Assembly (NCBI RefSeq): GCF_024256385.1 | Contig: NZ_JAMLFW010000002.1 | Span: 744,001-808,000, forward strand | DNA from: Anatilimnocola floriformis | GTDB lineage: Bacteria > Planctomycetota > Planctomycetia > Pirellulales > Pirellulaceae | Length of the DNA stretch: 64,000 nucleotides | Direction: 5' to 3' | In this document: in pieces, positions 5,202-42,345 of the stretch | How the letters are laid out: each line of letters begins with the position of its first letter | Numbering within the stretch: the first letter of the stretch is position 1 | Program-made: the position numbers and the translations under genes | Notes under the pieces: model-generated | Told to the model about the DNA's origin: nothing | Databases searched by the model: none | What the model saw: only the letters and a program-made list of their open reading frames with translations

Positions 5202-5332
5202 AGTCGTCGATCGCTCCGCGATCGATGAATGGAGGCAACTGGCAGCACGCGCTACCGGTTCACCTCAACTCGTCACCGGCAACGAACTTCGTTTCTGCGT
5301 CGATTCATCGACCGCAGAGCGTTCGACGACTA
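5202..5332. repeat. Paired REP hairpins in inverted orientation (REPIN-like)
   Basis: The left copy at 5202-5229 reads AGTCGT, then the hairpin CGATCGC-TCC-GCGATCG, then ATGAA. The right copy at 5304-5332, read on the minus strand, has TAGTCGT, hairpin CGAACGC-TCT-GCGGTCG and ATGAA. The two are inverted and fill the space between the glycosyltransferase stop at 5196 and the next gene's ATG at 5333. An upstream ATG at 5198 is in frame with that next gene, but its extra 45 codons would be translated from the repeat, so it is not used as the start. Confidence 0.85.
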
Positions 5333-8179
5333 ATGATCTCCCTGCCCCTCAGCATTCGATATCGCGAACAGCCGCAGCACGCTGCCGTGGCGTGGCTCGT
5401 GCCGGGAGATGATCTTGGGCTCTGGATGGAAGAATGGCTGCGCTGGAACCTACCGCAGGCTGATTGGCGAATTGCGGTGCTGCCGGGGTGGGGCGCGCTG
5501 ACGATCTTGCCCGCAGGACAAAAGCCCGTCGTCGCCCCGCGGGCGATTCCCTTCGGCCGTGCCGGCTCGCGCTGGTATCTGCCGTTACATGCAGAGTTAT
5601 TGCCAGCGGCGACGAAGGAAGAACTCGAATCGCTATTGCCTAGCGATCTCGCGGCTGCGGTTTTTCATCCGGCACGCGGCCTACTGACGATCGAGCCCGG
5701 CGAGCTGCGCGGCATCGAACATTTGCTATTGCCGCCGATGTTTTCGGCGCAGGATTGGACCCGGGCGCAACCCGGCGAGGCACTCAACGATCGTCTGCTC
5801 AGCGTGCAGCCCAATTCGTTGCCGTCGCTCGCCGAAGTGCTGCAGCAGGGCCGCGACGACATCGGTTCGCAGGGAGACCAAATCAACGAACTGCCGCCGC
5901 GGCCGAATGAACCGGGCAACGGCTTGCTCGATCAAATGAAGCGGGGCATGTCGCAGGTGGGCCTTAGAGCCCTGGGCGGAATGGCCGGGATGATTGGTGC
6001 CGCGATGTCGTACTTGCCGGGACTCGGCAGCGGTGTTGCACCCGCTGGCGGTTCGCGCGGCAGTGCTGGATCTGGCGGCGGTGCGGCGGGGCCCGGTTGG
6101 CTCGATTCGCTCTCGAAGTGGGTGACCAAGCGTCTCGGCGCGATCTCGCAGCAACTCGAGGATCAGCGGAACAAAGAGATTCAACGGCTGATGCATTTGC
6201 TGCAGAACAATCCCGATGAAGGGCTGAAGTTTGCGATTCCCTTTAGCAGCAGCGAACATCGGGGCGTAGCACCACCGAGCGGCTCGCTTGGTTCGCGCGA
6301 AGTGAACTTCAATTTGAATCGCATCGGCGGTGGTGGGCCGGCCGATCATTGGAACTTGTCGCCGCAGTATCAACTGCAACTGGCCCAGCGATATCGCGAG
6401 CTCGCCAATCGCGAATTGCAACTCGGTCGACATCGGCGGGCTGCTTACATTTTCGCGGAACTGCTTGGCGATTTTCTCGCGGCAGCTTCGGCCCTTGCCG
6501 CCGGCGAGCATTGGCGCGAAGCGGCGGTGCTGTATCGCGATCGTTTGAATCAGCCAAAGAAAGCTGCGGAATGTCTCGAGCGCGGCGGTTTGTTGCACGA
6601 AGCCATTGCGCTGTACGAACCGCTGCGCGAGTTCGAAAAGATCGGCGATCTTTATCTGCGGTTGGAGCAAAAAGAAGAAGCGATCACGGCCTGGCGGCAA
6701 GCAGCGCAGGCAGCCGAGGGAAATCGCGAATACTTCAAAGCGGCACACTTGTTCGAAAACAAAATCGGCCTGCCGCAGGAAGCCGAACAGGTGTTGCAGC
6801 GGAGTTGGCACAGCGGCCATCAGCTGCGCGAGAGTCTCGAGAAACTGTTCGAATTGTATCTTCGTCAGCAATGGCACGACCGTGCGCACCAGCGGATTGC
6901 GCAGCTCCGAGATACGTACAGTATCGTTACGATCGGCGTCGTCAACTGCGAGGCCCTCGCGACCGTCGCCCGCAATTATCCCGATCAGCAAGTCGCCGAT
7001 TACGCCGCTGATACTGCGCGGCTCATCATCGGCACGCACTTGCCGCAAGCTGATAAGCCCGCGCGGACACGGTTGGTCACTTCCTTGCAACAGCTGGTCC
7101 CTGGCGATCAATTGCTGACGCACGATGGCCAGCGGTATTTGCGCGAGCGCGATGTCGCTCAGTCCGCCAAAGCACAGGCTCCGGCGAAAGCACAGCCGAA
7201 GAAAACTGATATCTCGCGCAAAGACCGCCCGGTCCGACTCGTTCGCGAGTTTCAGCAGGATAAGCAAATTGCCTGGGAGGCTGCTGCCGCCGCGGGAAGT
7301 TATTTCTGGGCCATTGGTAACGACAAGGGCGTGATTGTGATTGCGGCCGTCTGTTGGCAAGGCAGAGTGCAGCGCAAGTGGATCAACCCGCGAGGCGTGA
7401 TTGAAGCCGCTCACATCGCCGCCGATCCGCAGGGCCACGGGCCGCTGTTGATTGCGACCGGCTTTGGCCAGCAGGAAGCGTCGTTCGAAATGCACTCGCC
7501 GCAAGGCATCACGCAAGCAGTGCTGTTCGAAGGTGCGCAAGGAGCAGCGGATGCAACGCGCTTCACGCGCGTCAGCGTCTGTTATGCGCTCGGCCGGGCG
7601 TTCTTCATCGAGCGCGATGCAGCCACGGGTTATCTGGTGGCCAACGGGCGAATGATCGGCGCGAAGCAAACGCTCGGTGAGATCGTCACTACGTTCGACG
7701 TTTGCGAAGCCGATCCGGACAACGCGATTTTGCCTACGCACGGTAGGAACGATTTGCTGGCCATCGGTTATCAACAAGTGCTGCGACTGATTCGCGGCCC
7801 GGAAGAAATCGAAGAACTCGAGTTCAGCGGCCCGATCCGCCAGATCGCCGGTTCGGCCCCCTTCACACGCACGCGGCTGGCCGTCGTTACCGACAACGGC
7901 ACATTTGTCGTTTGGCTGCAGGGGCGCGAGGCCTCGGCCCCCATCGGCTGCGGCTACGATCTGCAGCAGCCCGTTGCCTGCTTCACACTCGGCGGCCATC
8001 TGGTCCTCGCTGGCGTCAATGGCGGCGAAGTTTACGAGACGTCGAATGTAGGTTTGAAGCTTTGCCACACGTTCGCCAATTTTGGTTTCGCGCCGATTGC
8101 CGTGCTGCCTACCGATGAACCGAATGAGTTTGCCGTGGTGGGGCCGAATGGAGCTGTTCGTATCTACGCGATTGGATAA
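5333..8179 (+). CDS. TPR and beta-propeller protein, bpX-like (MoxR-vWA-beta-propeller type)
   Basis: The 948-residue product has three visible parts. Residues 1-180 are a compact alpha/beta domain (start MISLPLSIRYREQP) that ends VFHPARGLLTIEPGELRG. A Gly/Ala-rich linker follows. Residues 340-600 are helical TPR-like units rich in Ala, Leu and Tyr (YRELANRELQLGRHRRAA and following). Residues 640-948 look like blades of a beta-propeller, with repeated Trp/Gly strands. This order resembles the bpX-type proteins of the MoxR-vWA-beta-propeller ternary systems, in which an AAA ATPase, a vWA protein and such scaffold proteins occur together. No MoxR or vWA gene is in this window, so the call is tentative. 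The stop codon abuts a REP at 8178. Confidence 0.5.
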   Translation: MISLPLSIRYREQPQHAAVAWLVPGDDLGLWMEEWLRWNLPQADWRIAVLPGWGALTILPAGQKPVVAPRAIPFGRAGSRWYLPLHAELLPAATKEELESLLPSDLAAAVFHPARGLLTIEPGELRGIEHLLLPPMFSAQDWTRAQPGEALNDRLLSVQPNSLPSLAEVLQQGRDDIGSQGDQINELPPRPNEPGNGLLDQMKRGMSQVGLRALGGMAGMIGAAMSYLPGLGSGVAPAGGSRGSAGSGGGAAGPGWLDSLSKWVTKRLGAISQQLEDQRNKEIQRLMHLLQNNPDEGLKFAIPFSSSEHRGVAPPSGSLGSREVNFNLNRIGGGGPADHWNLSPQYQLQLAQRYRELANRELQLGRHRRAAYIFAELLGDFLAAASALAAGEHWREAAVLYRDRLNQPKKAAECLERGGLLHEAIALYEPLREFEKIGDLYLRLEQKEEAITAWRQAAQAAEGNREYFKAAHLFENKIGLPQEAEQVLQRSWHSGHQLRESLEKLFELYLRQQWHDRAHQRIAQLRDTYSIVTIGVVNCEALATVARNYPDQQVADYAADTARLIIGTHLPQADKPARTRLVTSLQQLVPGDQLLTHDGQRYLRERDVAQSAKAQAPAKAQPKKTDISRKDRPVRLVREFQQDKQIAWEAAAAAGSYFWAIGNDKGVIVIAAVCWQGRVQRKWINPRGVIEAAHIAADPQGHGPLLIATGFGQQEASFEMHSPQGITQAVLFEGAQGAADATRFTRVSVCYALGRAFFIERDAATGYLVANGRMIGAKQTLGEIVTTFDVCEADPDNAILPTHGRNDLLAIGYQQVLRLIRGPEEIEELEFSGPIRQIAGSAPFTRTRLAVVTDNGTFVVWLQGREASAPIGCGYDLQQPVACFTLGGHLVLAGVNGGEVYETSNVGLKLCHTFANFGFAPIAVLPTDEPNEFAVVGPNGAVRIYAIG

Positions 8180-8213
8180 CAGTCGCCTTTCACTCCGTGA
8201 AAGGACGCGTCTT
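8178..8213 (+). repeat. REP hairpin, left copy flanking RAYT gene 1
   Basis: The head ACAGTCG is followed by the perfect 8-bp hairpin CCTTTCAC-TCC-GTGAAAGG and the tail ACGCGTCTT. It starts on the stop codon (TAA at 8177-8179) of the preceding gene. The 36 bases are an exact inverted match to 9035-9070. Confidence 0.95.
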
Positions 8214-8310
8214 CTGAAGGTGGAATTGCATCAGACTGCGGCCTATCAGCGTTCAAGTGTGAATCAGAGAAAACCTGGATTTGCGATGGCAGGTTCCGTA
8301 AGCTGCAGCG

Positions 8311-8327
8311 GGTGAAAGGCGACTGTA
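8311..8327 (-). repeat. Truncated REP (half hairpin)
   Basis: Read on the minus strand this is ACAGTCG followed by the left stem arm CCTTTCAC; the loop and right arm are missing. It lies about 20 bases before the transposase start, facing the copy at 8178, and forms with it a REPIN-like pair. Confidence 0.8.
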
Positions 8328-8347
8328 GAGCAACGGTGAGGTGCGGC

Positions 8348-8998
8348 ATGCTCGGCGAGTGCTTTGATCCAAAAGCGAATTTGGAGATCTACAAACATTG
8401 CCGGCCCCATTGGTCGCAGAGTGGTACTGTCGTGTTTCTCACGTTTCGGACGGAAGACTCGATTCCACAAGAGGTGATCATGCGTTGGGAGCGTGAGAAA
8501 CAAGCTTGGCTGCGAGCGCGCGGACATCAGCAAGGCAAACATTGGTCTGAGGTAATTGAGACTTTGCCCGACAATGACAGGAATGACTTCTATCGCGAGT
8601 TCCGACGCACGCGCGAAGACTTTCTTGACACCTGTCAAGGCGATTGCCTCCTCAAGCAACCTGCCATCACGAAGATCGTCAGCGATTGTTTGCTCCATTT
8701 CGATGGAGTTCACTACCGAATGGGTGATTTTGTGGTCATGCCCAATCACGTCCATCTCCTTGCCGTGTTCGCGACGGCAGAAGCAATGGCTGATCAGTGC
8801 GATTCCTGGCTGAAGTTTTCGGCCACCAAAATCAACCGGTTGCTGAGCCGGAAAGGCAAGCTTTGGCAACAAGAGCCCTTCGATCATCTGGTGCGAAGTC
8901 CCGAGCAGTATGAATACCTGCGGAAATACATTGCCGACAACCCGACGAAGGCCGGCTTGAAGCTTGGCGAATATTTCTACCGCCGTTGGAACGGTTGA
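8348..8998 (+). CDS. REP-associated tyrosine transposase (TnpA_REP / Y1 HUH family)
   Basis: A 216-residue protein of the Y1 transposase superfamily. The HUH metal site is visible as VVMPNHVHLL around residue 130, and the C-terminal helix EYLRKYIADNPTKAGL carries the candidate catalytic tyrosines. FDHLVRSPEQYEYLRKY is the signature of the REP-associated subgroup, which cuts and joins single-stranded REP DNA and is normally a single-copy chromosomal gene rather than part of an insertion sequence. The in-frame GTG at 8312 would translate the REP half-copy, so the ATG at 8348 is chosen. The gene is framed by matching REPs on both sides. Confidence 0.93.
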   Translation: MLGECFDPKANLEIYKHCRPHWSQSGTVVFLTFRTEDSIPQEVIMRWEREKQAWLRARGHQQGKHWSEVIETLPDNDRNDFYREFRRTREDFLDTCQGDCLLKQPAITKIVSDCLLHFDGVHYRMGDFVVMPNHVHLLAVFATAEAMADQCDSWLKFSATKINRLLSRKGKLWQQEPFDHLVRSPEQYEYLRKYIADNPTKAGLKLGEYFYRRWNG

Positions 8999-9034
8999 CT
9001 TGCCAAACAACCTTCCCACAGCTGTCACGGTCGA

Positions 9035-9070
9035 AAGACGCGTCCTTTCACGGAGTGAAAGGCGACTGTT
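9035..9070 (-). repeat. REP hairpin, right copy flanking RAYT gene 1
   Basis: Exact inverted copy of 8178-8213, with hairpin CCTTTCAC-TCC-GTGAAAGG on the minus strand. It lies 37 bases after the transposase stop. Confidence 0.95.
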
Positions 9071-9196
9071 GTGGCCGTCGCCGGGCCGTTTGCAACGGTT
9101 GTATTCTCCGCAGGGGTGGCTTCTTGCGTTGTCCGGTGCGCAATTACGTCCTATAATCGAACGTGGTTGCGTTGCGTCCGTGTTCAGGAGAGGTGC

Positions 9197-10915
9197 GTGG
9201 GCGACAGGCAGAAACTGCTGTTTGTAGCAGGCGAGGGAGATCAGCTCCCACCTTCTATCGCCTCGGCGTGTGATATCGTCGAGGTGCATAATCCACTTCG
9301 CGCCTTGGCCCGCGTCGGCCGCGAAGAGTTCGACGGCATTTACGTTGCCGCCAAGCACTTCACCGAAGCCCTCCGCCTCGGCCGGCTGCTCGAAAACGAC
9401 CGCATCCTCGAGGGAATGCCCGACGCGATGGCGCTCCTCGATAGCGAGTGCATCATTCTGTGGGCCAACGAACGGCTCCGTCACTGGGCCAACCGCGGCA
9501 ACATCGTCGGCGAGCATTTTTTCGCCGCTCTGGGAAATCCCGAGATCGTCGGCACCGAAGCTTCGCCGCTGCGGGCCGCTCTCCGGTCGAGTCACCCGGT
9601 CAGTTCGTTGCTGCGGACCGTCGACAACCGTTACTTCCACCTGCATGCATCGCCGATCGTCGATCCCGAAGAAAAAACCAAGAACCTGGTCGTCACCGTT
9701 CGCGATGTAACGATCGAAACGCAGCAACGGCACAAGCTGTCGGCCATTCAAGACGCCGGCCGCACGCTGGCCGATCTCAAGCCGGACGAAATCTTCGAGA
9801 TGTCGGTCGAAGAGCGGGTCGAGCTCCTCAAATCGAATATTCTCCACTGCATCAAGGACCTGCTGAAGTTCGACGTCGTCGAAATTCGCCTGGTCGATCA
9901 CAAGACGAAGCAACTCGTGCCACTGCTCGAAGTCGGCATGGACCCCGAAGCCGCTCAGCGCGAGCTCTTCGTCAGCAAAGAAAAGAACGGCGTGACCGGC
10001 TTCGTCGCCGCCACCGGCAAGAGCTATCTCTGCGAAGACACTGCCAACGATCCGCTCTACCTGCAGGGTGTGCAAGGAGCCAAGAGCTCCCTCACTGTAC
10101 CGCTGAAGATGCACAGCGTGGTCATCGGCACGTTTAACGTCGAGAGTCCGCAGCCGCGAGCTTTCACCGACAGCGACCTGCAGTTCCTCGAGATTTTCTG
10201 TCGCGACGTCGCCATGTCGCTGAACACGCTCGACCTGCTCGTCGCTCAGCGGGCCAACGCGGCTCAAGAGAGCGTCGAACAGATTCACCGTGAAGTAGCC
10301 CTCCCCATCGATGCGATTCTCAACGATGCCACGATGGTCGCTCAGCTCTACAAGGGCGCCGACGTCGCCTGCGGCGATCGGTTGAACGACATCGTCAATC
10401 GCGCTCGCGAAATCAAAGCCGTCATTCAGCAAGTCGGCCGCAAAATGGCCCCCGCCGAAGCGATTCCCGCCTCGGTCGTGCCGCAGGACGATCGGCCGAA
10501 ACTGCGTGGCCGTCGCGTACTGGTCGTCGATAGCGAACCCGCTGTTCGTACCAGCGCTCACTGCATGCTCGAAAAATATGGCTGCGTCGTCGAAACCGCC
10601 CAGCGCGGCGACGAAGCCGAATCGCTCTATCAGCACAGCCTGCGCGACTCGCGCTACGACGTGGTCCTCACGGGCATCAAGCTGCCCGACATGACCGGCT
10701 ACGAGCTGATGATGAAGCTCAAGACCATGATTTCCCCCGTGCCGCTCATTCTGATGAGCGAATTCGGTTGGGACGCCGGCCACACCCTCGTCAAAGCCCG
10801 CCAGGCCGGTCTGCACAGTCGCGGCTATCTCATCAAGCCGTTCATTCTCAAGCAACTGCTCGACACGGTCGAAACGATCATCGACTGGTCGAACGAACCG
10901 GGCACGCAGGCTTAG
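9197..10915 (+). CDS. PAS-GAF protein with a C-terminal degenerate receiver domain
   Basis: The GTG at 9197 follows AGGAGAGG at 9186-9193, a good ribosome binding site, giving 572 residues; the frame is open further upstream into the REP. Residues 75-180 are a PAS-like sensor (EGMPDAMALLDSECIILWANERL). Residues 210-345 are a GAF domain (EKNGVTGFVAATGKSYLCED). A helical stretch at 365-420 resembles a dimerisation helix but I see no kinase ATP domain. Residues 436-555 are a receiver fold (RRVLVVDSEPAVRT) whose phospho-acceptor aspartate position is Gly in DVVLTGIKLPDMTGY and whose second acidic-pocket residue is Ser; the Lys of YLIKPF is kept. It is therefore probably a pseudo-receiver used for protein contact, not classic phosphorelay. 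Confidence 0.85.
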   Translation: MGDRQKLLFVAGEGDQLPPSIASACDIVEVHNPLRALARVGREEFDGIYVAAKHFTEALRLGRLLENDRILEGMPDAMALLDSECIILWANERLRHWANRGNIVGEHFFAALGNPEIVGTEASPLRAALRSSHPVSSLLRTVDNRYFHLHASPIVDPEEKTKNLVVTVRDVTIETQQRHKLSAIQDAGRTLADLKPDEIFEMSVEERVELLKSNILHCIKDLLKFDVVEIRLVDHKTKQLVPLLEVGMDPEAAQRELFVSKEKNGVTGFVAATGKSYLCEDTANDPLYLQGVQGAKSSLTVPLKMHSVVIGTFNVESPQPRAFTDSDLQFLEIFCRDVAMSLNTLDLLVAQRANAAQESVEQIHREVALPIDAILNDATMVAQLYKGADVACGDRLNDIVNRAREIKAVIQQVGRKMAPAEAIPASVVPQDDRPKLRGRRVLVVDSEPAVRTSAHCMLEKYGCVVETAQRGDEAESLYQHSLRDSRYDVVLTGIKLPDMTGYELMMKLKTMISPVPLILMSEFGWDAGHTLVKARQAGLHSRGYLIKPFILKQLLDTVETIIDWSNEPGTQA

Positions 10916-10924
10916 CGCTATCCG

Positions 10925-12181: not shown

Positions 12182-12448
12182 CCAAACCTCGCCCCATCGT
12201 CGTCGATCACTCCGTGATCGATGGCTCGAGGTGAACGCGCAACATTCCCAGGAATGAGCTCCGCGAAATTCCGGCTTTGGCGCGCGATCGTGGAAGTGGA
12301 GTCGTATCGAGGAAGCGCAGTCGCGGAACAACACAACCGCCGACTCCCCTCGCCGAACTTGCTGGAATTTCGCTGACGCTTATTCCAGCGAGCCACTGCC
12401 TGCGACCGCCACCATCGAATACGGAGTATTCGACGACAATGAACACAA
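12182..12448. repeat. REP-rich spacer with two TCC-loop hairpins and one repeat shared with 14 kb
   Basis: No gene is supported here. A REP copy at 12198-12224 has head CGTCGT, hairpin CGATCAC-TCC-GTGATCG and tail ATGG. A minus-strand copy at 12411-12439 has hairpin CGAATAC-TCC-GTATTCG, again with tail ATGG. Between them 12352-12389 is a hairpin element (GCTGGAAT ... ATTCCAGC) repeated nearly unchanged at 14082-14119. Confidence 0.8.
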
Positions 12449-13483
12449 TCACGAGCCACGAGGCCGATTCGCCCAGCGGAATTCGCCGGTGCCGGGCGGT
12501 TCGTCGTCCGGTACATGCTGAACCGGCACGCAATAACCCCGAACCAGCGCGCTGACCGGGGCCGGTGGCCGCTGGCGACTCCCCTCTGCCGGCGGAGCTT
12601 TATATAACAGGTGATCTGTTTTTGTTTTCGATGTAACCGCTGGTTGCTGATTGTCTTGCGACGTTTTTCCTTCGTTCTTGCATAACACTTTATTGCACTC
12701 TGCGGAGGACCTCTTCAGCTTTGAGTCCTCGACGACTGTCGACTTCTGGTTCGAACTCTCCTCTTCCACCACAGCCGTCACGCACGCGAGCAGCGGCGCG
12801 TTCGTCGGCATCTCATCCGCCAGCGTCTCTTCCGCCACTGCCGCCACCGCCTTCACTTCGGCATTCCGTTTCTCGGCTTCTTGCTGCCACATGCCGGGCA
12901 CGCCTTCATCGCCGGGAGTGTCGAAGTCGCCGCTCATCACCTTGCGTTTCACGCCGCGGTAAAGCTCTTCGTCGACCATCTTCGGCGGCTCTGGCACGCG
13001 GCCTTTGCTCGACACATCGACGTTGCCGCGCAGATCAAAACCCTCAAACTGCACAATCTTGTCCGCGGCGAGCAGCCCAACCTTGAACAGCCGATCATCG
13101 CCGTCGCGCACCTCCACCGTCCGCTCCTCAACTTCCTCGCCCTTCACTTTTCGCACCTTCACTTTGTGCTTCGTCTGCTTCGACGACTGCCACGCGACCA
13201 CGGCTTGCTGATGCCAAAACGCGAGCCGATCGCGATGATCGCGTGCCGCCACCCGCAACTGCTCCTCGCGCGAAAACTGCTCCATGCCCGGCGGCGCGGG
13301 GAGCGCCCGCCACTTCCGCACCCGCCTGACGATCGCACTGACGCGCGGCTGCTTGATGCCATGCTCGGCCGCCACCGCCGACTGCAACCGCTGCTCGATG
13401 ACCACGGCTTGATAAATCTGCCGATCGCGCTGCGACACCCGCATCTCAATCGACCGCAACGGATTCTTCGACTTGGCAGGCAT
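12449..13483 (-). CDS. Hypothetical protein with N-terminal helix-turn-helix
   Basis: The ATG at 13483 has AGGAG eight bases upstream on the minus strand, giving 344 residues; a longer frame upstream (to 13561) would run through non-coding sequence. Residues 12-55 look like a DNA-binding helix-turn-helix (RDRQIYQAVVIEQRLQSAVA followed by AEHGIKQPRVSAIVRRVRKW). The middle part is charged and includes a KVKVRKVKGEEVEERTV stretch. The last 100 residues are low-complexity and rich in Ser, Glu, Lys and Pro, probably disordered. The gene lies between two REP-rich spacers. It may be a regulator or a terminase-small-subunit-like protein; I cannot choose. A short fragment with a similar stretch (GAT.ACCTGTTATATA) occurs at about 45.3 kb. 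Confidence 0.6.
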   Translation of the reverse strand: MPAKSKNPLRSIEMRVSQRDRQIYQAVVIEQRLQSAVAAEHGIKQPRVSAIVRRVRKWRALPAPPGMEQFSREEQLRVAARDHRDRLAFWHQQAVVAWQSSKQTKHKVKVRKVKGEEVEERTVEVRDGDDRLFKVGLLAADKIVQFEGFDLRGNVDVSSKGRVPEPPKMVDEELYRGVKRKVMSGDFDTPGDEGVPGMWQQEAEKRNAEVKAVAAVAEETLADEMPTNAPLLACVTAVVEEESSNQKSTVVEDSKLKRSSAECNKVLCKNEGKTSQDNQQPAVTSKTKTDHLLYKAPPAEGSRQRPPAPVSALVRGYCVPVQHVPDDEPPGTGEFRWANRPRGS

Positions 13484-14261
13484 GAGATGACTCCTGAAAA
13501 AAGGAAGTGAAAACGAAAGCCAACATGCAATCACACAACACCAAAACGCTGCACGCCACATCGCACGTGCGCAGCACGCTTCGCTCCCTCGCCCCGCCTC
13601 GGGGAGAGGGCCGGGGTGAGGGGTTAGCAGCGCTATCGACTTAATCTCAACAGTCCTATCAGCCGCCGGGCGCTAGCCCCCGGCTCTTACCTTCACTCGC
13701 AGAAGAAGCCGGGGGCTAGCGCCCGGCGGCTGATGGGACGACCTGAATTTTCGCGACACAGTGGACGGTTGTCAACTAAATAACTCAATAAATACGCCTC
13801 CATTGAGAACTAACTCACGATGTATCTCCTGAGAAACTTGGCAAAACTATCTGCCAAATAGAGACACGCTAAGCTTCCGGCCCCTCACCCCAACCCTCTC
13901 CCCGGAGTACCGAGGCGAGGGAGTGAGAAGAGCACTATGTAGTCGTTTTCTCCGAAAACGATGGGTTGAGGCCGACCTGAAGCGTGCCGAGGAACGAGCC
14001 CCGCGAAGTTCCGGATTTGGCGAGTGACGGTAACGCGGCGTTGCCTTTTGAAAGCGGACCACTTCGCCGCCACCCTAGCGCGCCGAACTTGCTGGAATAT
14101 CGCTAACGCTTATTCCAGCAGCAGTCGGCATTCGACCGCCACCACCGAATATGGAATATTCGGCGACATAACGGAGAATTCGACGACATAGTTGACGCTG
14201 ACTGTTGCCAGCGACGATGATTGGCTTTCCCGCCAAATCATTTCTCTCCTGAGGTGCCTCG
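13484..14261. repeat. 777-bp gene-free spacer packed with four kinds of palindromic repeat
   Basis: No coding region is supported. From left to right: a pyrimidine-rich repeat at 13585-13623 whose inverted partner is at 13881-13923 (CTCCCTCG ... GGTGAGGGG type); an inverted pair of AGCCGCCGGGCGCTAGCC elements at 13660-13688 and 13704-13738; a TCC-loop REP at 13940-13965 (TAGT, hairpin CGTTTTC-TCC-GAAAACG, ATGGG); the GCTGGAAT hairpin repeat at 14082-14119; a minus-strand REP at 14146-14162 (CGAATAT-TCC-ATATTCG) and a truncated one at 14170-14190. The stretch 13740-13880 between repeats is AT-richer. Confidence 0.8.
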
Positions 14262-14888: not shown

Positions 14889-14891
14889 GTC

Positions 14892-19796: not shown

Positions 19797-20549
19797 ATGC
19801 CTCAGAAAATCGCCATTGTCACGGGAGCTGGATCGGGAATCGGCCGCGCGGTTGCGCTCGCGCTGCTGCGCGGCGGCTATGCGGTCGGGCTCGCAGGGCG
19901 CCGCGAAGCGAATTTGCAAGAGACGGCAACGCTGGCCGGCGAGTTTCAGGCGAACGCGCTGCCGATCGCCACCGACGTGACCGATGAAGCCGCCGTGCGG
20001 AAACTGTTCGACCAGGTCGTGGCAAAGTTTGGCCGGCTCGATGTGCTCTTCAACAACGCTGGCCAAGGCGCGCCAGCGATTCCGCTCGATGAACTCCGCT
20101 TCGACAAATGGCAACAAGTGGTGAACGTCAATCTCACCGGCGTGTTTCTCTGCACGCGCGAAGCCTTCCGGGTGATGAAAGCCCAATCGCCGCGTGGCGG
20201 CAGGATCATCAACAACGGCTCGATCTCGGCGACCACGCCGCGGCCAAACTCAGCGCCCTACACCGCGACGAAGCATGCGATCAGCGGTTTGACGAAATCG
20301 TGCGCGCTCGACGGCAGGGCGTTCGACATTGCCGTGGGACAGATCGACATCGGCAACGCCGGCACCGATCTGACCGCCCGCATGGCGGGCGGCGTGCCGC
20401 AGGCGAATGGCACCGTTGCCGCGGAGCCAACCATGGATGTCAATCACGTCGGCCAAGCCGTGCTGAACATGGCCAACCTGCCGCTCGATGCCAACGTGCT
20501 GTTCATGACCATCATGGCAACCCAAATGCCGTTTGTCGGGCGCGGCTAG
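19797..20549 (+). CDS. SDR family oxidoreductase
   Basis: A 250-residue classical [15 protein letters not shown] at residues 10-21, NNAGQGAP, a serine in [12 protein letters not shown] and YTATK as the catalytic Tyr/Lys. The residues after the active site ([17 protein letters not shown]) are those of a typical cofactor-side loop. Substrate unknown. The TAG stop at 20547-20549 is the first three bases of a REP element. Confidence 0.92.
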
Positions 20550-20786
20550 TCGTCGATCGCTCCGCGATCGATGAATGGAAGCTAAACAACCACGGGCCGA
20601 GGAATGAGCGCCAGCGATATTCCGGCGCTTGGCGAACGAATGTGGAAACGGTTAACGCAGAACGTCGAGTGTTCGACAATCGCGCTGCGAAGAATACTCG
20701 CCGAAGTGTCGAAAGTCGCGGAGCTCTTTCGGCGGTCCGTGGTGGGTTCGAGTCCGTTCATCGACCGCGGAGCGGTCGACGACTAG
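20547..20786. repeat. Inverted pair of TCC-loop REP hairpins (REPIN-like)
   Basis: Left copy 20547-20575: TAGTCGT, hairpin CGATCGC-TCC-GCGATCG, ATGAA. Right copy 20757-20785 on the minus strand: TAGTCGT, hairpin CGACCGC-TCC-GCGGTCG, ATGAA. The two stems differ by a paired change that keeps the hairpin perfect. Each copy supplies the TAG stop codon of the gene next to it. Confidence 0.9.
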
Positions 20787-21271: not shown

Positions 21272-21280
21272 CGGTTTCTC

Positions 21281-21315
21281 ACAGTCGCCTTTCACTCCGT
21301 GAAAGGAAGCGTCTT
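21281..21315 (+). repeat. REP hairpin of the RAYT-1 type
   Basis: ACAGTCG, hairpin CCTTTCAC-TCC-GTGAAAGG, then AAGCGTCTT; one base different from the copies that flank the RAYT gene at 8.2-9.1 kb. Confidence 0.93.
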
Positions 21316-29789: not shown

Positions 29790-29793
29790 CCTG

Positions 29794-31452: not shown

Positions 31453-31553
31453 AGAGAAGTTGCAATTGTTGCGAATGTCGGATGGAGCTAATAATAGGAC
31501 TGCAGGCGGAAAACACCAAACCCACTCGCGACCTGACGCCTGAAGTTCGTCTT

Positions 31554-32165: not shown

Positions 32166-32329
32166 CTGGATTCATTTTTTTCGGTGGATAGCATTGGTTG
32201 CGTCAGCAACCAATGTCGCGCCAGCGAAAAGAGGCATAGCGGTTGAGGTGACGCGCAATCCCCGGCGGAGATCGATACGCACCCCGCATGCGACGAAATT
32301 TTCAACGGGCGGCGGAATGCCTCTTGCCG

Positions 32330-36156: not shown

Positions 36157-36240
36157 CGGGTACTCCCGACATGCACCAGGCCTCGCGAACGTCCCGCCCG
36201 AGACGTTCAACTCTTATTCGACGATTGATGATCTCTTCAC

Positions 36241-36246
36241 TATACT
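36241..36246 (+). promoter_or_regulatory. Possible -10 box (TATACT) for the allC-type gene
   Basis: TATACT is a good -10 hexamer ten bases before the GTG start at 36256, so the transcript would be almost leaderless. No convincing -35 is seen at the right distance; the call is speculative. Confidence 0.2.
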
Positions 36247-36255
36247 CGGACCATT

Positions 36256-37533
36256 GTGAATCACCCACCCCAAGACGACGTTCTCCTCGCGGAGCTGGCG
36301 CAGCGCACGCTCGATCGCTGCGAGGCCGCCGCGGCGTTTACCGAAGAGCCCGGCCGGATCACGCGGACGTTCTGCTCCTCCGCGATGGCCGATTTGCATG
36401 TGGCGCTGCGGGATTGGATGGAAGCGGCGGGCCTGACCTGCCGGGTCGATGCGGCGGGAAATCTCTTCGGCAGGCTGGAATCGCCGTTGCTAGATAATGC
36501 TCAGACGCTGCTGATTGGCTCGCATCTCGACAGCGTGCCGAATGCCGGTCGATATGACGGCGTGCTGGGTGTGATGCTCGGCCTGGCGCTCGTGGAAGCC
36601 GTGCAGCGCAGTGATTTGCGGTTGCCGTTTGCACTGGAGGTCGTCGGCTTTAGTGAGGAAGAAGGAGTCCGCTACGGCGTGCCGTTTATTGGTTCGCGGG
36701 CGCTCGTTGGGGACTGCGACGAAGCATTACTTCAACGTAAGGACGCAAATGGCGTTTCTGTGGCTGAAGCGCTGGGCCACTTTAGCTGCGATGCTGCGCA
36801 AATTCAGTCCTGCGAACTGCCGGCGAAAAAATACGTCGCCTATCTCGAGCCGCACATCGAACAAGGGCCTGTGCTGGAGAGTGAAGATCAGCCGCTGAGC
36901 ATCGTCACCGCGATCGCCGGCCAAACGCGGGCAGCCGTGCGGTTTGTCGGCGCGGCAGGCCATGCGGGAACGGTGCCGATGGAGTTAAGAAAGGACGCAC
37001 TCTGCGCCGCGGCCGAATGGATTATCGAAGTCGAGAAAGCGGCTCAGCAAACGCTCGGCCTGGTCGCCACGGTCGGCACGATTGAAGTTTCTCCCGGCGC
37101 GGGCAATGTCATCCCCGGCGAAGCTCGGCTTCGACTCGACATTCGCCACACCGACGACAAAATTCGCCAGGCCGCGGTCGAGCATCTCATTCGCCTTGGC
37201 AAAGATTTGCAGCAGACGAGAAATATCGAATTCCAATTCACAACCGCTCATGAACACTCTGCCGTGGCGATGGATGCTGCGATCACCACGATGCTGAAGC
37301 AAGGCATCGCGGCTGCCGGACATCGGACGATGGAACTGCCGAGCGGCGCGGGTCACGATGCCGCCGTGATGGCCCGCCGCTGGCCCTCGGCTATGCTATT
37401 TATTCGTTGCCGCGGCGGCGTGAGTCATCATCCGGATGAAGCGGTGACGCTCGCCGATGTTACCGCAGCCCTCACGGCGATATGGCATTTCGGACGACGG
37501 TTGAATTCTAAAATCCTGAGCGACTACTTCTAA
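36256..37533 (+). CDS. allC: Allantoate amidohydrolase (M20 family)
   Basis: A 425-residue M20 hydantoinase/carbamoylase-type zinc enzyme. Metal-binding stretches are GSHLDSVPNAGRYDGVLG near residue 90 and FSEEEGVRYGVPFIGS near 135, with HIEQGPVLE and GAGHDAAVMA further on. It breaks allantoate into ureidoglycine, ammonia and CO2. The start codon is GTG at 36256; there is no ATG until the motif core. A second M20 protein follows two genes later and is of the other ureide type, which supports giving this one the AllC role. It diverges from xdhA. Confidence 0.88.
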   Translation: MNHPPQDDVLLAELAQRTLDRCEAAAAFTEEPGRITRTFCSSAMADLHVALRDWMEAAGLTCRVDAAGNLFGRLESPLLDNAQTLLIGSHLDSVPNAGRYDGVLGVMLGLALVEAVQRSDLRLPFALEVVGFSEEEGVRYGVPFIGSRALVGDCDEALLQRKDANGVSVAEALGHFSCDAAQIQSCELPAKKYVAYLEPHIEQGPVLESEDQPLSIVTAIAGQTRAAVRFVGAAGHAGTVPMELRKDALCAAAEWIIEVEKAAQQTLGLVATVGTIEVSPGAGNVIPGEARLRLDIRHTDDKIRQAAVEHLIRLGKDLQQTRNIEFQFTTAHEHSAVAMDAAITTMLKQGIAAAGHRTMELPSGAGHDAAVMARRWPSAMLFIRCRGGVSHHPDEAVTLADVTAALTAIWHFGRRLNSKILSDYF

Positions 37534-37547
37534 TTTACGCGACCAGC

Positions 37548-38297
37548 ATGGACATCTTCGGCTCATCTCGTTCCCGCATTGCTCGCAACTACGCGCTCCT
37601 CACACCCGATACGCACGTGCCGTCGCCGCTGATCGGCTGGGAGAACGCGACGGCGTATTTTCACATCACGCCGGAGATGGGTGCGCGGTTTCAGCAATAC
37701 ACAGCCGTCCTCGCGCCGGGCGGCAAAGGGATCGAACCAAGCGCTGCGATCGAGCGGTTGTTTTTTGTGCAAGAAGGTAATCCGAGCGTTGAAGTCTCGG
37801 GCAAAACAACCTCGCTGAAGCCTGGCTCGTTTGCATTTCTGCCGGCAGGAACCGCGCACAAGATTTCCACCAAGGACGCAACCAAGCTCATCGTCTTCGA
37901 AAAGAAATACCTCCCGCTCGCCGGTGTGAATTCGCCGCCGGTCGTGATCGGTCACGAAGACGACATCGAAGCCAAGGCGTTTCTCGGCGATGAAGATGCG
38001 CGGCTGAAAACACTGCTGCCGATCGATCCCGCGTTCGACATGGCCGTCAATATTTTCACGTATCAGCCCGGCGCCACGCTGCCGTTTGTCGAGATTCATG
38101 TGATGGAGCACGGCCTGCAGATGATCCAGGGTTCGGGCGTGTATCGACTGGGCGATGATTACATGCCGGTGGCGGCCGGCGACATCATCTGGATGGCTTC
38201 GTATTGCCCGCAGTGGTTCGTGGCGATGGGGAAGCAGCCGGCGCGATACATTTATTACAAAGACATTCACCGCGATGGCTTGGAGTTGCGAGGATGA
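37548..38297 (+). CDS. allE: (S)-ureidoglycine aminohydrolase
   Basis: A 249-residue bicupin. Both cupin barrels are present: the first around YTAVLAPGGKGIEPS, the second at LPFVEIHVMEHGLQMIQGSG with the metal ligand set and YLGDDY-like region. The ending WFVAMGKQPARYIYYKD is typical of YlbA/UGlyAH. It converts ureidoglycine to ureidoglycolate and ammonia using Mn2+. It starts 14 bases after the AllC-type gene and its stop overlaps the next ATG by four bases, so these three are one operon. Confidence 0.93.
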   Translation: MDIFGSSRSRIARNYALLTPDTHVPSPLIGWENATAYFHITPEMGARFQQYTAVLAPGGKGIEPSAAIERLFFVQEGNPSVEVSGKTTSLKPGSFAFLPAGTAHKISTKDATKLIVFEKKYLPLAGVNSPPVVIGHEDDIEAKAFLGDEDARLKTLLPIDPAFDMAVNIFTYQPGATLPFVEIHVMEHGLQMIQGSGVYRLGDDYMPVAAGDIIWMASYCPQWFVAMGKQPARYIYYKDIHRDGLELRG

Positions 38298-39544
38298 GCG
38301 CCTTGTCGCTGTCAGTTTCCGCCGAGCGCGTCTGCCGCCAATTGGACGAGCTCGCTGCCTTTTCGGATGCTCCCGCACCGGCGGTGACGCGAGTTCTCTT
38401 CACACCGACGGACATGCAAGGTCGGGCGTTTATCAAACGCCTGATGGAAGATGCCGGCTTGTCCTTTCGCGTCGATGCGGCAGGAAATCTGTTCGGTCGC
38501 TGGATTGGCAGTGAACCAAACCAACCAGCCGTGGCCACGGGTTCGCACTGCGATGCAATTCCCCACAGCGGCCGCTACGACGGCACGGTGGGTGTGATCG
38601 GCGCGATCGAAGCGGTGGTGTCACTAAAAGCAGCCGGCTTTCAGCCGCGGCGGTCGATCGATGTGATCATGTTCAACGCCGAAGAGCCGACGCGCTATGG
38701 CATTGGTTGTCTTGGTAGTCGGATTATGAGTGGACGACTTTCTCCAGAAGCGGCGGGCGAATTGCGTGATCAAGACGGCGAGACGTTTGAAACGACGCGT
38801 AAGAGCTCAGGCTGTCTCGGTAAGCTTCCGAGTGTGCGAATTTCGCCGAGCAAGTACAGTGCGTTCGTCGAACTCCACATCGAACAAGGCCCGCTGCTCG
38901 AAAAGCAAAACCTGCCGATCGGAGTAGTGACTGCCGTCGCGGCCCCGGCAGCATTTCGAGTGACGTTCCACGGCGAGGGAGGCCATGCCGGAGCGGTGCT
39001 GATGCACGAACGCAAAGATGCACTGCTACCGGCCGCAGAATTGACGGTTGCCGTGGAGCGTGCAGCGATGGAACTCGGCGGGAAGGATACGGTCGCAACC
39101 GTCGGCATTCTCGACGTCCATCCGCATGCGATCAACAGCATTCCGAGCCGGGCCGAGATGACCGTCGATGTGCGCGATATTGATTTGCAACGGCGCGACC
39201 TGGTGCTGGAAGTGATCAAGCGATACGCCGCTGAAGTTGCCCAGAATCGCGGCATGAAGATGAATCTCGAAATGATCAACGCCGACCCACCGGCGAAGTG
39301 CGACGTGCAAGTCATCGCCGCCATCCAAGCGGCTGCCGAAGAAGCCAAGCTTCCCGCCCTACCGATGATTAGTCGGGCGTATCACGATTCGCTGTTCATG
39401 GCCCTCATCGCGCCGACGTCGATGATTTTTATTCCCTGTCGCGGCGGTGTGAGTCATCGGCCCGATGAATATGCTTCGCCCGCAGCGATTCGCGGCGGCG
39501 TTGAAGTGCTTGCCCGCACGCTGGCCCGTTTATCTCATTCGTAA
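38294..39544 (+). CDS. Ureidoglycolate amidohydrolase-type M20 enzyme
   Basis: A 416-residue M20 enzyme related to but distinct from the first. Its metal region reads GSHCDAIPHSGRYDGTVG and FNAEEPTRYGIGCLGS; the EEPTRYG(I)xCLGS form is that of plant and bacterial ureidoglycolate amidohydrolase (UAH), where AllC enzymes have EEEGVRY. It would release glyoxylate, two ammonia and CO2 from ureidoglycolate. The ATG overlaps the stop of the cupin gene. An N-carbamoyl amino acid hydrolase is the main alternative, but the location favours UAH. Confidence 0.85.
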   Translation: MSALSLSVSAERVCRQLDELAAFSDAPAPAVTRVLFTPTDMQGRAFIKRLMEDAGLSFRVDAAGNLFGRWIGSEPNQPAVATGSHCDAIPHSGRYDGTVGVIGAIEAVVSLKAAGFQPRRSIDVIMFNAEEPTRYGIGCLGSRIMSGRLSPEAAGELRDQDGETFETTRKSSGCLGKLPSVRISPSKYSAFVELHIEQGPLLEKQNLPIGVVTAVAAPAAFRVTFHGEGGHAGAVLMHERKDALLPAAELTVAVERAAMELGGKDTVATVGILDVHPHAINSIPSRAEMTVDVRDIDLQRRDLVLEVIKRYAAEVAQNRGMKMNLEMINADPPAKCDVQVIAAIQAAAEEAKLPALPMISRAYHDSLFMALIAPTSMIFIPCRGGVSHRPDEYASPAAIRGGVEVLARTLARLSHS

Positions 39545-39565
39545 GGCGCCTTTTGAGGATTTACC

Positions 39566-40417
39566 TTGGCCCATTTGCAAAGTCAGAGTTACGGCAAGAG
39601 TCGCGTTCGGCTGTCGCACATCGAGCGGAAAGCCGAGCGTCACGAGTTCCTGGAAGTGACCACCGCGATCTCGCTCGATGGCGATTTTGCCGCTGCGTTC
39701 ACGTCGGCAGATAATCATCTGATCGTCGCCACCGACACGATGAAGAACACGGTTTACCTGCTCGCGCACGAGCACGGCGTGCCGTCGATCGAAGCCTTCG
39801 GCTTGCGGCTGGCCCAGCATTTTCTCGATCAATATCCGCACGTCACGCAGGTCCGCGTCTCGCTCGAAGAGAAACCGTGGCAGCGCCTGGCCATCGCCGG
39901 CGAGCCGCATCCGCACAGCTTTGTCGCGACCAGCGAGCGTCACATCTGCGAAATCGCCGCGACCCGCACGGCAACGAAGATGACGTCGGGCATGACCGAC
40001 CTGCAAGTGCTGAAAACCACGGGCTCCGGCTTTGCGAATTTTCATCGCGACGAGTACACCTCGCTGCCGGAAACCAACGACCGCATCTTCGCCACAACGA
40101 TCGAAGCCAACTGGCCCTGCAGCAACCTGCCCGACGACTGGAGCACCGCGCGCCAAAACATTCGCGCAGCCATCTTAAAAATCTTCGCCGAGAACTTCAG
40201 CCCTTCGGTGCAAGCGACCCTCTTCGAAATGGCCGAAGCAGCTTTCGTCGCCTGCTCGCAGATCGACGAAATCACCATCACGATGCCGAACCAACATCAC
40301 ATTCCGTTCAACTTCACCCCGTTCGGTAAGACGAATGCGAACATCACGTTCATCCCCACCGATGAACCGCATGGCCTGATCAGCGGGACGGTGCGAAGGG
40401 GAGAGAAAAAGTGCTGA
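39566..40417 (+). CDS. pucL: Urate oxidase (uricase)
   Basis: A 283-residue cofactor-free uricase. The T-fold signatures are visible: YGKSRVRL at the N-terminus, ATDTMKNTVYLLA around residue 55 (the catalytic Thr and Lys region), a VLKTTGSGFANFHRDEYTSL stretch and the C-terminal IPFNFTPFGKTNAN. It turns urate into 5-hydroxyisourate. The start is a TTG at 39566; no ATG or GTG lies close enough to keep the N-terminal strand. The next gene overlaps its stop by seven bases. Confidence 0.95.
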   Translation: MAHLQSQSYGKSRVRLSHIERKAERHEFLEVTTAISLDGDFAAAFTSADNHLIVATDTMKNTVYLLAHEHGVPSIEAFGLRLAQHFLDQYPHVTQVRVSLEEKPWQRLAIAGEPHPHSFVATSERHICEIAATRTATKMTSGMTDLQVLKTTGSGFANFHRDEYTSLPETNDRIFATTIEANWPCSNLPDDWSTARQNIRAAILKIFAENFSPSVQATLFEMAEAAFVACSQIDEITITMPNQHHIPFNFTPFGKTNANITFIPTDEPHGLISGTVRRGEKKC

Positions 40418-41793
40418 GCGCGAGCTATTCGGATCCGAGCATGTTTTTTCTGCAAAGTCGTCGCGTCGTAACGCCAGAAGGAGTGCGCCCGGCGAAGATT
40501 CTTGTAAACGGCACCGTGATGCTGGTTGCCAACTACGGCGAAACTGTCAATTTCGGACGGCCAATGGAGATTGAAGTCCACGACCTCGGTGATCTCGTCA
40601 TTTCGCCCGGGGTAATTGACGCTCACGTCCACGTCAACGATCCGGGTAGCGACTGGGAAGGATTCGAATCGGCCACGCGGGCTGCTGCGGCCGGCGGTGT
40701 GACCACGCTCGTCGACATGCCGCTCAACAGTCTGCCGGTGACAACGACGATCGCTGCCTTGAAAGCTAAGCAAGAAGCATCGCGGCGCAAGTTGTGGGTC
40801 GATGTAGGGCTGTATGGCGGATTGGTGCAAGGCAATGCCGATCAAATGCAGGACTTGTGCGACGCCGGCGTGCTCGGTGTGAAATGCTTCTTGTGTCATT
40901 CGGGGCTCGATGAGTTTCCGAACGCGCTCGAAGCCGATCTGCGGCAAGCCATGCCGATTCTGGCGAAAGCCAGAATTCCCCTGCTCGTGCATGCGGAACT
41001 GTTAAGTTCGCCGGCGCCTGCCGTTGTTGATCCTCGCTCTTTCGCACAGTTCGTCGCATCGCGGCCTGAGAAGTGGGAATTGGATGCGATTCAGCTGATG
41101 CTTAATTTGTGCCGCGAAACGGGATGTCAGGTGCATATCGTGCATCTGGCCACCGGCGCCGCACTGCCGATGCTGGCCGCAGCGAAGCAGGAAGGCCTGC
41201 CGATCACGGTCGAGACTTGTCCGCATTATCTGTTCTTCGAAAACACGACTGTTGCCGATGGCGACACACGCTTCAAGTGCGCGCCGCCCATTCGCGCAGG
41301 TGCAGCCGCCCAGTTGTGGCAAGGTTTGCTCGATGGTGTGATCGATACGATCGGCTCCGATCATTCGCCGTGTCCGCCAGAGATGAAGCATCTCGATACC
41401 GGCGACTTCACGCAGGCGTGGGGTGGAATTGCTTCGTTACAATTGACATTGCCCGCGGTGTGGACGTTCATGAGACGTCATGGCTGCGAGGATCTGTCGC
41501 TGGTCACAAAATGGCTGACGACCGAACCAGCGAAACTTGTCGGCATCGAAGTTCGCAAGGGGCAAATCACCGCCGGTTTCGATGCCGACCTGATCGTCTG
41601 GGATCCAGACGCAAAGTGGAAGGTCGAAGCGAGCGAGTTGCTGCACCGCCAACCGATCACACCCTACGACGGCTGCGAAATGACGGGCAAAGTGGTGCGA
41701 ACCTACGTGCGCGGTCAGCAAGTGTTTCGTGATGGCCATCTGCTCAGGCAGCCATTCGCAAAGGTGCTCAAGCCGTGGTGGCAAGGACAGTAA
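40411..41793 (+). CDS. allB: Allantoinase
   Basis: A 460-residue cyclic amidohydrolase. Metal site DAHVHVNDPGSDWEGFES near residue 70, GVLGVKCFLCHSG at the carbamylated lysine region, HVEL-like HAELLSSP, TVETCPHYLFF, and GSDHSPCPPEMK at the end of the barrel. It opens allantoin to allantoate. The GTG at 40411 follows GGGGAG with good spacing and overlaps the uricase stop, so translation is coupled; an ATG at 40441 is the alternative. Confidence 0.95.
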   Translation: MLSASYSDPSMFFLQSRRVVTPEGVRPAKILVNGTVMLVANYGETVNFGRPMEIEVHDLGDLVISPGVIDAHVHVNDPGSDWEGFESATRAAAAGGVTTLVDMPLNSLPVTTTIAALKAKQEASRRKLWVDVGLYGGLVQGNADQMQDLCDAGVLGVKCFLCHSGLDEFPNALEADLRQAMPILAKARIPLLVHAELLSSPAPAVVDPRSFAQFVASRPEKWELDAIQLMLNLCRETGCQVHIVHLATGAALPMLAAAKQEGLPITVETCPHYLFFENTTVADGDTRFKCAPPIRAGAAAQLWQGLLDGVIDTIGSDHSPCPPEMKHLDTGDFTQAWGGIASLQLTLPAVWTFMRRHGCEDLSLVTKWLTTEPAKLVGIEVRKGQITAGFDADLIVWDPDAKWKVEASELLHRQPITPYDGCEMTGKVVRTYVRGQQVFRDGHLLRQPFAKVLKPWWQGQ

Positions 41794-41796
41794 GTG

Positions 41797-42297
41797 ATGA
41801 ATGTCGCCAGCACTCTCAATTCGCTCGACGCGGCCCCTGCCCGCGATGCTCTCCAAAAATGCTGCGCCGCGCCGCAGTGGGCTGAACAGATGCTCGCGCG
41901 CCGGCCATTCGCCACCGATGAAGAAGTAACTCACGCCGCAGTCGACATCTGGTGGTCGCTCAATCGCAACGAGTGGCTCGCCGCTTTCGCCGCGCATCCC
42001 AAGATCGGTGATCCGGCCAGCTTGCGGGCCAAGTATGCGAATACTTCGCACTGGGCCAGCAACGAACAAGCAGGCGTTGCTGCCGCGGCCGAACAAACGT
42101 TGCAGGAACTCGCCGATTACAATCAGCGGTACGAACAGCGGTTTGGCTACATCTTTATCGTGTGCGCCACCGGCAAGAGTGCAGCCGAGATGCTTGCGCT
42201 GCTCAAAGGACGCATCGACAACGATGCTGAATCGGAGATCAAAGTCGCCGCTGGCGAGCAACTGAAAATCACTTTGCTGCGGCTGCAAAAAGTGTAG
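41797..42297 (+). CDS. uraD: 2-oxo-4-hydroxy-4-carboxy-5-ureidoimidazoline (OHCU) decarboxylase
   Basis: A 166-residue helical protein with the OHCU decarboxylase signature: AAHPKIGDPASL, then the SNEQAG loop and YEQRFGYIFIVCATGKS. It decarboxylates OHCU to (S)-allantoin, the third step after urate oxidation. It follows allantoinase by three bases. The TAG stop is inside a REP at 42295. Confidence 0.94.
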   Translation: MNVASTLNSLDAAPARDALQKCCAAPQWAEQMLARRPFATDEEVTHAAVDIWWSLNRNEWLAAFAAHPKIGDPASLRAKYANTSHWASNEQAGVAAAAEQTLQELADYNQRYEQRFGYIFIVCATGKSAAEMLALLKGRIDNDAESEIKVAAGEQLKITLLRLQKV

Positions 42298-42345
42298 TCG
42301 TCACGCTCCGCGTGGCGCGCCCCACACGGAGCGTGAGAACTACAC
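42295..42345. repeat. Inverted pair of TCC-loop REP hairpins between uraD and uraH
   Basis: Left copy: TAGTCG, hairpin TCACGC-TCC-GCGTGG. Right copy on the minus strand: GTAGTTC, hairpin TCACGC-TCC-GTGTGG. The first supplies the uraD stop codon; the pair sits in the 59-base gap before uraH. Confidence 0.88.

Follow-up and report, generated by a model that had tools for sequence, protein, structure and literature searches.

A constant TCC triloop on unrelated stems: REP hairpins of Anatilimnocola floriformis and their probable spread by RAYTs that read loop and tag

Introduction

Repetitive extragenic palindromes (REPs), REP-associated tyrosine transposases (RAYTs), REP dimers with their tags outward, stems of 8–9 bp adjoining the tag and complementary changes within stems have all been described before (PMC3733652, PMC2817692, PMC3686654). 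The superfamily of GTAG-tagged REPs (Di Nocera 2013, PMC3733652), which extends to Planctomycetes including R. baltica, is characterized by an end tag, a stem of 6–13 bp and a loop of 2–3 nt in many families, with head-to-head dimers and complementary changes in the stems, and the tag variants GYAG, GYRG, GTRG and GTMG are also in print. However, the text of that paper defines families by stem and loop together, whereas the REPs described here carry one TCC loop on many unrelated stems, and GTCG is here the tag of one RAYT subclade. These REPs lie in a stretch of 64,000 nt from A. floriformis, hereafter referred to as the window (positions 744001–808000 of contig NZ_JAMLFW010000002.1; G000:C2:744001-808000 in our dataset), in a genome of 8.93 Mb and 17 contigs. 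They are probably REP elements, mostly in head-to-head pairs of the REPIN (REP doublet forming hairpins) or BIME (bacterial interspersed mosaic element) type, spread by RAYTs that read the loop and the tag and are blind to the stem sequence.

The group 3 RAYTs of Stenotrophomonas maltophilia (Sm) and Marinomonas (Mb), whose REPtrons were studied by Corneloup 2021 (PMC8266576), also go with short perfect palindromes (8 bp with a 3-nt loop in Sm), and in vitro the loop bases and the tag mattered, while stem swaps were largely tolerated. Their loops are GCT and TTTA and their tag is GTAG, whereas the loop here is TCC and the tags are GTCG, GTAG or GTGG. Stenotrophomonas REPs (Nunvar 2010, PMC2817692; Nunvar 2013, PMC3686654) likewise have 8–9 paired bases at the tag, complementary changes and RAYT genes between inverted REPs, but their tag is GT(A/G)G and their loops are different in the table rows compared. 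The REPs of E. coli are long and contain a bulge, and SELEX (systematic evolution of ligands by exponential enrichment) experiments showed no selection of their loop (PMC8266576).

Loop constancy and stem turnover at related RAYT loci

A sequence-only reading of the window had collected 13 hairpins and proposed that they were read by a RAYT through head and loop, not through the stem. This proposal is supported and largely holds. A RAYT gene, which that reading had left unmentioned, lies between two of its own copies (at 8178 and 9035), inverted REPs of the family designated C below, and relatives of this gene are flanked by REPs likewise. A gene between inverted REPs is the classical RAYT arrangement.

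With the window RAYT as the query, matches were found in 101 of 296 genomes of the order, and 97 loci were taken (L172–L260 and eight loci from the window's own genome; L161 and L165, which gave no phmmer match to the query, and L171, the same locus as L170, were dropped). A scan blind to loop sequence searched for hairpins with a loop of 2–4 nt that were repeated in the locus and had a GT[ACG]G tag in at least about two copies. Such a family was called at 80 of the 97 loci and at none of the 97 after one order-2 Markov shuffle each; of 182 own-genome stretches scanned as a milder control, 14 contained one, half of them with TCC, as expected for a REP-rich genome. The loop was exactly TCC at 58 of the 80 called loci, on 45 different 7-bp stems, with TCCT at five, TTCC and CTCC at two each and other loops at 13; TCC lay within the loop at 67. 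The 80 loci together had 64 different stems, and their tags were GTAG (47), GTCG (26) and GTGG (7).

A quick tree of 94 RAYTs (L162, L235 and L244 were additionally dropped) contained a clade of 71 rows (Shimodaira–Hasegawa-like approximate likelihood ratio test, SH-aLRT, 95), in which the 61 called loci had the loops TCC (53), TCCT (5) and GCC, TCT and TTT (once each). When the tag filter was dropped, seven of the ten uncalled rows of this clade had at least one TCC hairpin, and none was found in the other three (L193, L201 and L240). The sister clade of 14 had 12 called loci, none of them exactly TCC and four with TTCC or CTCC. Along the RAYT tree, with 67 loci, the three loop bases underwent 5, 4 and 5 changes, compared with 11, 18, 12, 16, 19, 18, 23 and 30 changes in the stem pairs, counted outward from the loop. 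All four Watson–Crick types were present at each of pairs 1–7, and pair 8 was often unpaired (Watson–Crick in 42 of 67). If the unpaired loop bases had no role, they should change no more slowly than the paired bases; their slower change therefore points to selection on the loop. Residue 180 of the RAYT (window numbering) is His in 98% of the 53 TCC-loop rows and Arg in each of the 13 sister-clade rows compared, which mostly have other loops; on this contrast between two clades only, it is a candidate recognition site.

A second set of 80 loci from named genomes was reduced to 76 by putting aside four that shared sequence with the first set. Hairpins were called at 45 of these, with 38 stems, the loop being exactly TCC at 23 and containing TCC at 31. 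With taxa sorted by record title, TCC was found in the loop at 12 of 13 called loci from Planctomycetota, 17 of 28 from Verrucomicrobiota/Kiritimatiellae and two of four from others. The TCC rule is strict near the window RAYT and looser further out.

RAYTs and hairpins also co-occur by genome. A covariance model (R1), built from 20 hairpins, eight of them from the window's genome, gave matches at E ≤ 0.01 in 19 of 20 genomes with such a RAYT (1 to 136 each; none in G145) and, with one match each, in four of 20 genomes without one; these counts include copies beside the RAYT, and the window's taxonomic family accounted for 13 of the 20 RAYT genomes and all 20 non-RAYT genomes. In the own genome, NF047646 identified ten RAYT-like loci, two of them within the window. 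TCC hairpins were found at four (L163, L167, with a one-base irregularity, L169 and L170) and other loops at six: TTCA (L161), TTCA with a GCGG foot (L162), CCTA (L164), TACT (L165), ATT (L166) and CAT/CAC (L168).

REP families of the window and the genome

The 13 hairpins are all real, ten of them being recovered by the strict scan and three (at 5304, 42295 and 42321) by direct reading (Table 1). As the sequence-only reading had said, the loop is TCC in all but one (12 of 13; TCT at 5304), and nearly all have a closing C-G pair (12 of 13; T-A at 14146). However, the single family that it had seen in them is in fact four groups: A has four copies, B and B' together four, C three and E two. Stem, 3' tail and partner separate these groups, but all are built alike, with a tag of GTCG or GTAG, some 8 bp of stem and TCC as the triloop, and they stand mostly in tag-out pairs.

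Table 1. Hairpins, RAYT gene and cargo-like gene in the window
Feature	Position	Strand	Basis
Family A REP, GTCG TCGATCGC TCC GCGATCGA, left half of tag-out dimer	5203..5225	+	pattern and strict scan
Family A REP, right dimer half, loop TCT, one A.G mismatch	5308..5330	-	direct reading
Family C REP, GTCG CCTTTCAC TCC GTGAAAGG, left of RAYT	8182..8204	+	strict scan
RAYT gene, 216 aa from Met, HuH motif NHVH, Tyr194, WQ....DH..R tag-binding set	8348..8998	+	profiles, fold
Family C REP, sequence as 8182 copy, inverted, right of RAYT	9044..9066	-	strict scan
Family B REP, GTCG TCGATCAC TCC GTGATCGA, left half of heterodimer	12199..12221	+	pattern and strict scan
Family B REP, GTCG TCGAATAC TCC GTATTCGA, right half of heterodimer	12415..12437	-	pattern and strict scan
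Cargo-like gene, 344 aa, KorA-like helix-turn-helix near N terminus, between two REP dimers	12452..13483	-	profile search
Family B REP, GTAG tag, GTAG TCGTTTTC TCC GAAAACGA	13939..13961	+	strict scan
Family B' REP, GTCG CCGAATAT TCC ATATTCGG	14145..14167	-	strict scan
Family A REP, left dimer half	20549..20571	+	pattern and strict scan
Family A REP, GTCG TCGACCGC TCC GCGGTCGA, right dimer half	20761..20783	-	pattern and strict scan
Family C REP, no partner found nearby	21284..21306	+	strict scan
Family E REP, GTAG t CGTCACGC TCC GCGTGGCG, one T.G pair, left half of close dimer	42294..42317	+	direct reading
Family E REP, GTAG tt CTCACGC TCC GTGTGGG, two G.T pairs, right half of close dimer	42321..42343	-	direct reading

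The consensus of family A is GTCG TCGAYCGC TCC, with the tail TGAAYGGA, and that of family C is GTCG CCTTTCRC TCC, with the tail ACGCGTCTT. Family B has the stems TCGTTTTC, TCGATCAC or TCGAATAC before TCC and the tag GTCG or GTAG, B' is GTCG CCGAATAT TCC, and B and B' have the tail TGGTGGCGG; family E is GTAG followed by CGTCACGC TCC. Beyond the window, families D (GTAG GCGAGTCAC TCC) and F (GTCG ACTTTCGC TCC) follow the same plan. The copies detected by pattern, strict scan and R1 are dispersed and numerous in the genome. Many form tag-out pairs with a spacing of about 80–240 bp, and pairs are also found in tandem arrays (C2:251101-251605 and C1:1767331-1768072), where the junctions between neighbouring pairs read CGAC-ATT-GTCG or CGAC-AAT-GTCG.

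The enrichment of TCC-loop hairpins over randomised sequence that had been expected was found: in 1.2 Mb of the same contig there were 113 perfect triloop hairpins with a stem of at least 8 bp, 44 of them with TCC/GGA, against 2, 0 and 1 in three order-2 Markov simulations. The R1 search of the own genome likewise bore out the expectation of many copies, with at least 120 matches at E ≤ 0.01 and at least 136 at E ≤ 10 (150 of 3042 candidates scored). The pattern GTCGTCG-N5-TCC-N5-CGA, which describes families A and B, had 79 matches in the genome and its reversed control one; over 60 genomes, the same pattern gave mostly chance sites, with real hairpins among the matches listed only in G000 and G030. 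Among 110 TCC hairpins from the own genome, the tag was GTCG in 100 and GTAG in 10, GT[ACG]G being required and the set having been collected partly with the GTCG pattern. In 20 hairpins hand-picked for diversity, pairing was 98.1% and 77 cells showed two-sided change, against 21.7 after shuffling; because only paired hairpins are detected, part of that percentage is built in, but the spread of pair types is not.

The tag, the adjacent A and RAYT residue 19

Head and loop had both been described as fixed. The loop is constant, but the head varies between GTCG, GTAG and GTGG, and loci that had failed the scan still showed TCC, with GTAT, GTAA, GTAC or GTTG, once the tag filter was dropped. TCC thus persists where the tag differs, and the tag is the less constant of the two. 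GTCG fills a clade of 23 rows (support 97; 20 GTCG, one GTGG and two uncalled) and was found separately in a clade of three rows (support 99) and in three scattered rows. An A was present at position −3 before GTCG in a mean of 0.88 of copies (24 loci), against 0.51 for GTAG (30 loci) and 0.49 for GTGG (6 loci); for GTCG against GTAG this corresponded to 6 of 20000 permutations, with relatedness uncorrected. Three copies of a 1.75 kb block in the own genome start 0–3 bases before the tag, and, together with the ATT or AAT at the array junctions, this suggests that the moved unit may begin with the A at −3. In Mb, the cut is directed by the tag, to CT through A3 and G4, to CA through T2 and G4, and to CC with GTGG (Corneloup 2021, PMC8266576). 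GTCG keeps T2 and G4, which fits a cleavage site with A; a C stands directly before that A in only 37% of copies.

Residue 19 of the RAYT is Arg in 23 of 26 GTCG rows, in one of seven GTGG rows and in none of 46 GTAG rows. Two uncalled rows have Arg19: L186, with one GTCG-TCC hairpin, and L201, with none. In the second set, all six Arg19 RAYTs with a called hairpin had GTCG (one of them has sequence in common with the first set), Leu was present in one GTCG row with mixed tags, and the residue-19 motif was not found in five rows. Arg19 arose twice on the RAYT tree, and with two gains significance is unattainable; a sign test of residue 19 against tag had too few independent pairs for significance.

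More tentatively, a RAYT clade centred on planctomycetes may know its REPs by loop and tag alone, and the changes from Leu19 to Arg and from GTAG to GTCG, with the A at −3, may have been re-tuned together as a re-programmed guide and cleavage site. If stems are unread, one RAYT can carry many REP families in trans, possibly including dimers that may have moved the KorA-like gene described below. Such reading would explain why one genome holds several REP families with unrelated stems. In vitro selection on two RAYTs suggested reading of loop and tag rather than stem (PMC8266576), and natural evolution across dozens of related RAYTs points in that direction too. The matched natural pairs (GTCG/Arg19 against GTAG/Leu19; TCC against other loops) make RAYT recognition and guided cleavage testable. 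In a literature search of text outside figures and supplements, no report was found of a RAYT clade that keeps the same loop throughout, or of a RAYT subclade in which GTCG is the uniform tag, nor did the literature search yield a report of Arg at RAYT residue 19 going with GTCG.

Proposed mode of spread

We suggest that the RAYT, as a single-strand transposase, would bind the hairpin formed by one strand and check both its TCC loop and, 8–9 bp away, the tetranucleotide tag GTCG or GTAG, the tag serving as the guide that would choose the cleavage site. The stem sequence would be unread by the enzyme, and stems would consequently drift while largely pairing. Families A and B would spread in trans, by enzymes like those of L169 and L170.

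Several observations weigh against this proposal. A mid-stem mismatch hurt cleavage by both enzymes described in PMC8266576, but mismatches persist here: the covariation of the arms claimed by the sequence-only reading fails in 18 of the 79 pattern copies, which have a mismatch at a fixed place in mid-stem (9 A.G, 1 A.A and 8 T.C), either because the spread tolerates it or because these lineages are decaying. For families A and B, no neighbouring RAYT was found in the own genome. The TCC loop is not exclusive to the 71-row clade, being found outside both clades (L163, L242, L243 and L259), and a TCC hairpin, along with a TCCT one, is also present at L239, an uncalled locus of the sister clade. 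In the second set, 31 of the 76 loci gave no family, and the loops were looser outside Planctomycetota (TTCT, TTC, TCT and ATCC). Of the four tag bases, the first G, the T and the final G were imposed by the scan filter itself; the 20 genomes with a RAYT in the co-occurrence comparison were drawn from those with loci already read, and eight of them had contributed rows to R1.

Alternative explanations

Families A, B and E might instead serve the host, as transcription ends, in RNA stability or as nucleoid sites, and share their loop with RAYT REPs by chance. Four copies in the window (5203, 12199, 20549 and 42294) are located at, or up to about 20 bases past, the end of an open reading frame (ORF) in a mechanical list, and the lack of an adjacent RAYT for A and B would also fit. 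However, no T run was present in the 3' flanks examined (TGAATGGA, TGGGTTGAGG, ACGCGTCTT and similar), and intrinsic terminators were rejected as the sole cause; no Rfam family reached threshold in the window. Furthermore, A and B match the RAYT-linked families in tag, spacing, loop and tag-out pairing, and the tandem arrays and the three block copies indicate mobility. We therefore consider host signals improbable.

Slightly less probable still is that C-TCC-G is kept for the unusual stability of the DNA hairpin rather than through reading by an enzyme. The complement of C-TCC-G is C-GGA-G, a triloop of the GNA type, which is unusually stable, and, among 67 RAYT-linked hairpins with a 3-nt loop, 48 close with a C-G pair. 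However, the other 19 had another closing pair, several of them with TCC, and, in the 1.2 Mb, GGA/TCC was counted 44 times against three for GCA, with GAA and GTA (or their complements) absent among the 20 loops listed. Other RAYTs, in the same genome and in the sister clade, go with other loops, and stability was rejected as the sole cause.

That the hairpins are the ends of miniature elements of DDE transposases with palindromic terminal repeats is most improbable and was likewise rejected as the sole cause: the inverted pairs 80–240 bp apart do resemble miniature inverted-repeat transposable elements, but many B dimers have different stems at their two ends, no consistent target duplication was seen by eye in the flanks of four window pairs (no formal search was made), and the gene between the hairpins at 8.2–9.1 kb encodes a HuH/Y1 enzyme. 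Assignment to the CGTC-tagged REPs (CGTC tag, loop of 4–5 nt, AT in the first two stem pairs) was also rejected, as the hairpins have a triloop and families C, D and F have no CGTC foot.

The RAYT gene of the window

The window RAYT matched NF047646 with an E value of 1.4e-13 (50.9 bits, under the curated cut-off of 80), the only NCBIfam match at E ≤ 0.01, and PF01797 with an E value of 0.012 (16.1 against a cut-off of 23); PF01797 alone missed both RAYTs of the window. We read these scores as those of a probably divergent family member, the cut-offs not being a defining trait of the enzyme. E. coli TnpAREP (4er8) was the best match in the PDB by both profile and fold: a profile of 16 relatives matched it with an E value of 6.7e-6, and an AlphaFold model (mean predicted local distance difference test score, pLDDT, 82) with an E value of 2e-4, although the global fit was modest (template modelling score, TM, 0.40/0.50; root mean square deviation 10.1). 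H134, H136 and Y194 were invariant across the 16 aligned relatives, and Tyr194 aligns with Tyr115 of TnpAREP. W94, Q95, H101 and R104 of TnpAREP are identical in the window RAYT, whereas E100 is replaced with Asp (numbers counted from the alignment; the roles of the aligned residues are taken from the text of PMC6006769). Short perfect REPs and D in place of E100, both found here, are traits of group 3 (subclass 2.5), but D at this site also marks subclass 2.7 (PMC6006769, PMC8266576). The most similar RAYTs were from planctomycetes such as Roseiconus and Aporhodopirellula.

A second RAYT-like gene is located at 47294–47905 (+) in the window and is flanked by hairpins of the form GTGG CACGGGTG TACT CACCCGTG at about 47232 and 47995.

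The KorA-like gene between REP dimers

The 344-aa gene between two of the REP dimers matched PF16509 with an E value of 3.7e-5, under the cut-off. It has five copies in the genome, with 93–100% identity, the others being at C1:160, C1:176270, C1:716945 and C2:1353165. TCC REPs are present on both sides of four of the five copies, and on one side of the fifth, which lies at a contig end; no TCC REPs were found within 1.5 kb of six more distant paralogues. REP dimers may therefore have moved this gene. When searched against plasmids, a 248-bp element of family B gave no match, and the empty site in the genus mate G001 was unreadable, the matching blocks ending short of the elements.

Other observations

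The TAG stops of the ORFs at 19797–20549 and 41794–42297 seemingly come from the tag region (20547–20549 and 42295–42297), if these genes are real. A 45-bp repeat of another kind occupies window positions ~13880–13925 and has more than 30 matches in G001. On C2, a further REP family, GTAG CWGAATTC GCCA GAATTCWG, was seen, for example in the stretches from 138600 and 607200, and GCCA was the commonest tetraloop of stems of at least 8 bp (22 of 86). Locus L246 (G289:C131:55584-58732) contains about 25 copies of GTGACGCG TCC CGCGTCAC without a GTNG tag, and the foot of these hairpins is GGAT, GGAG or GGAC.

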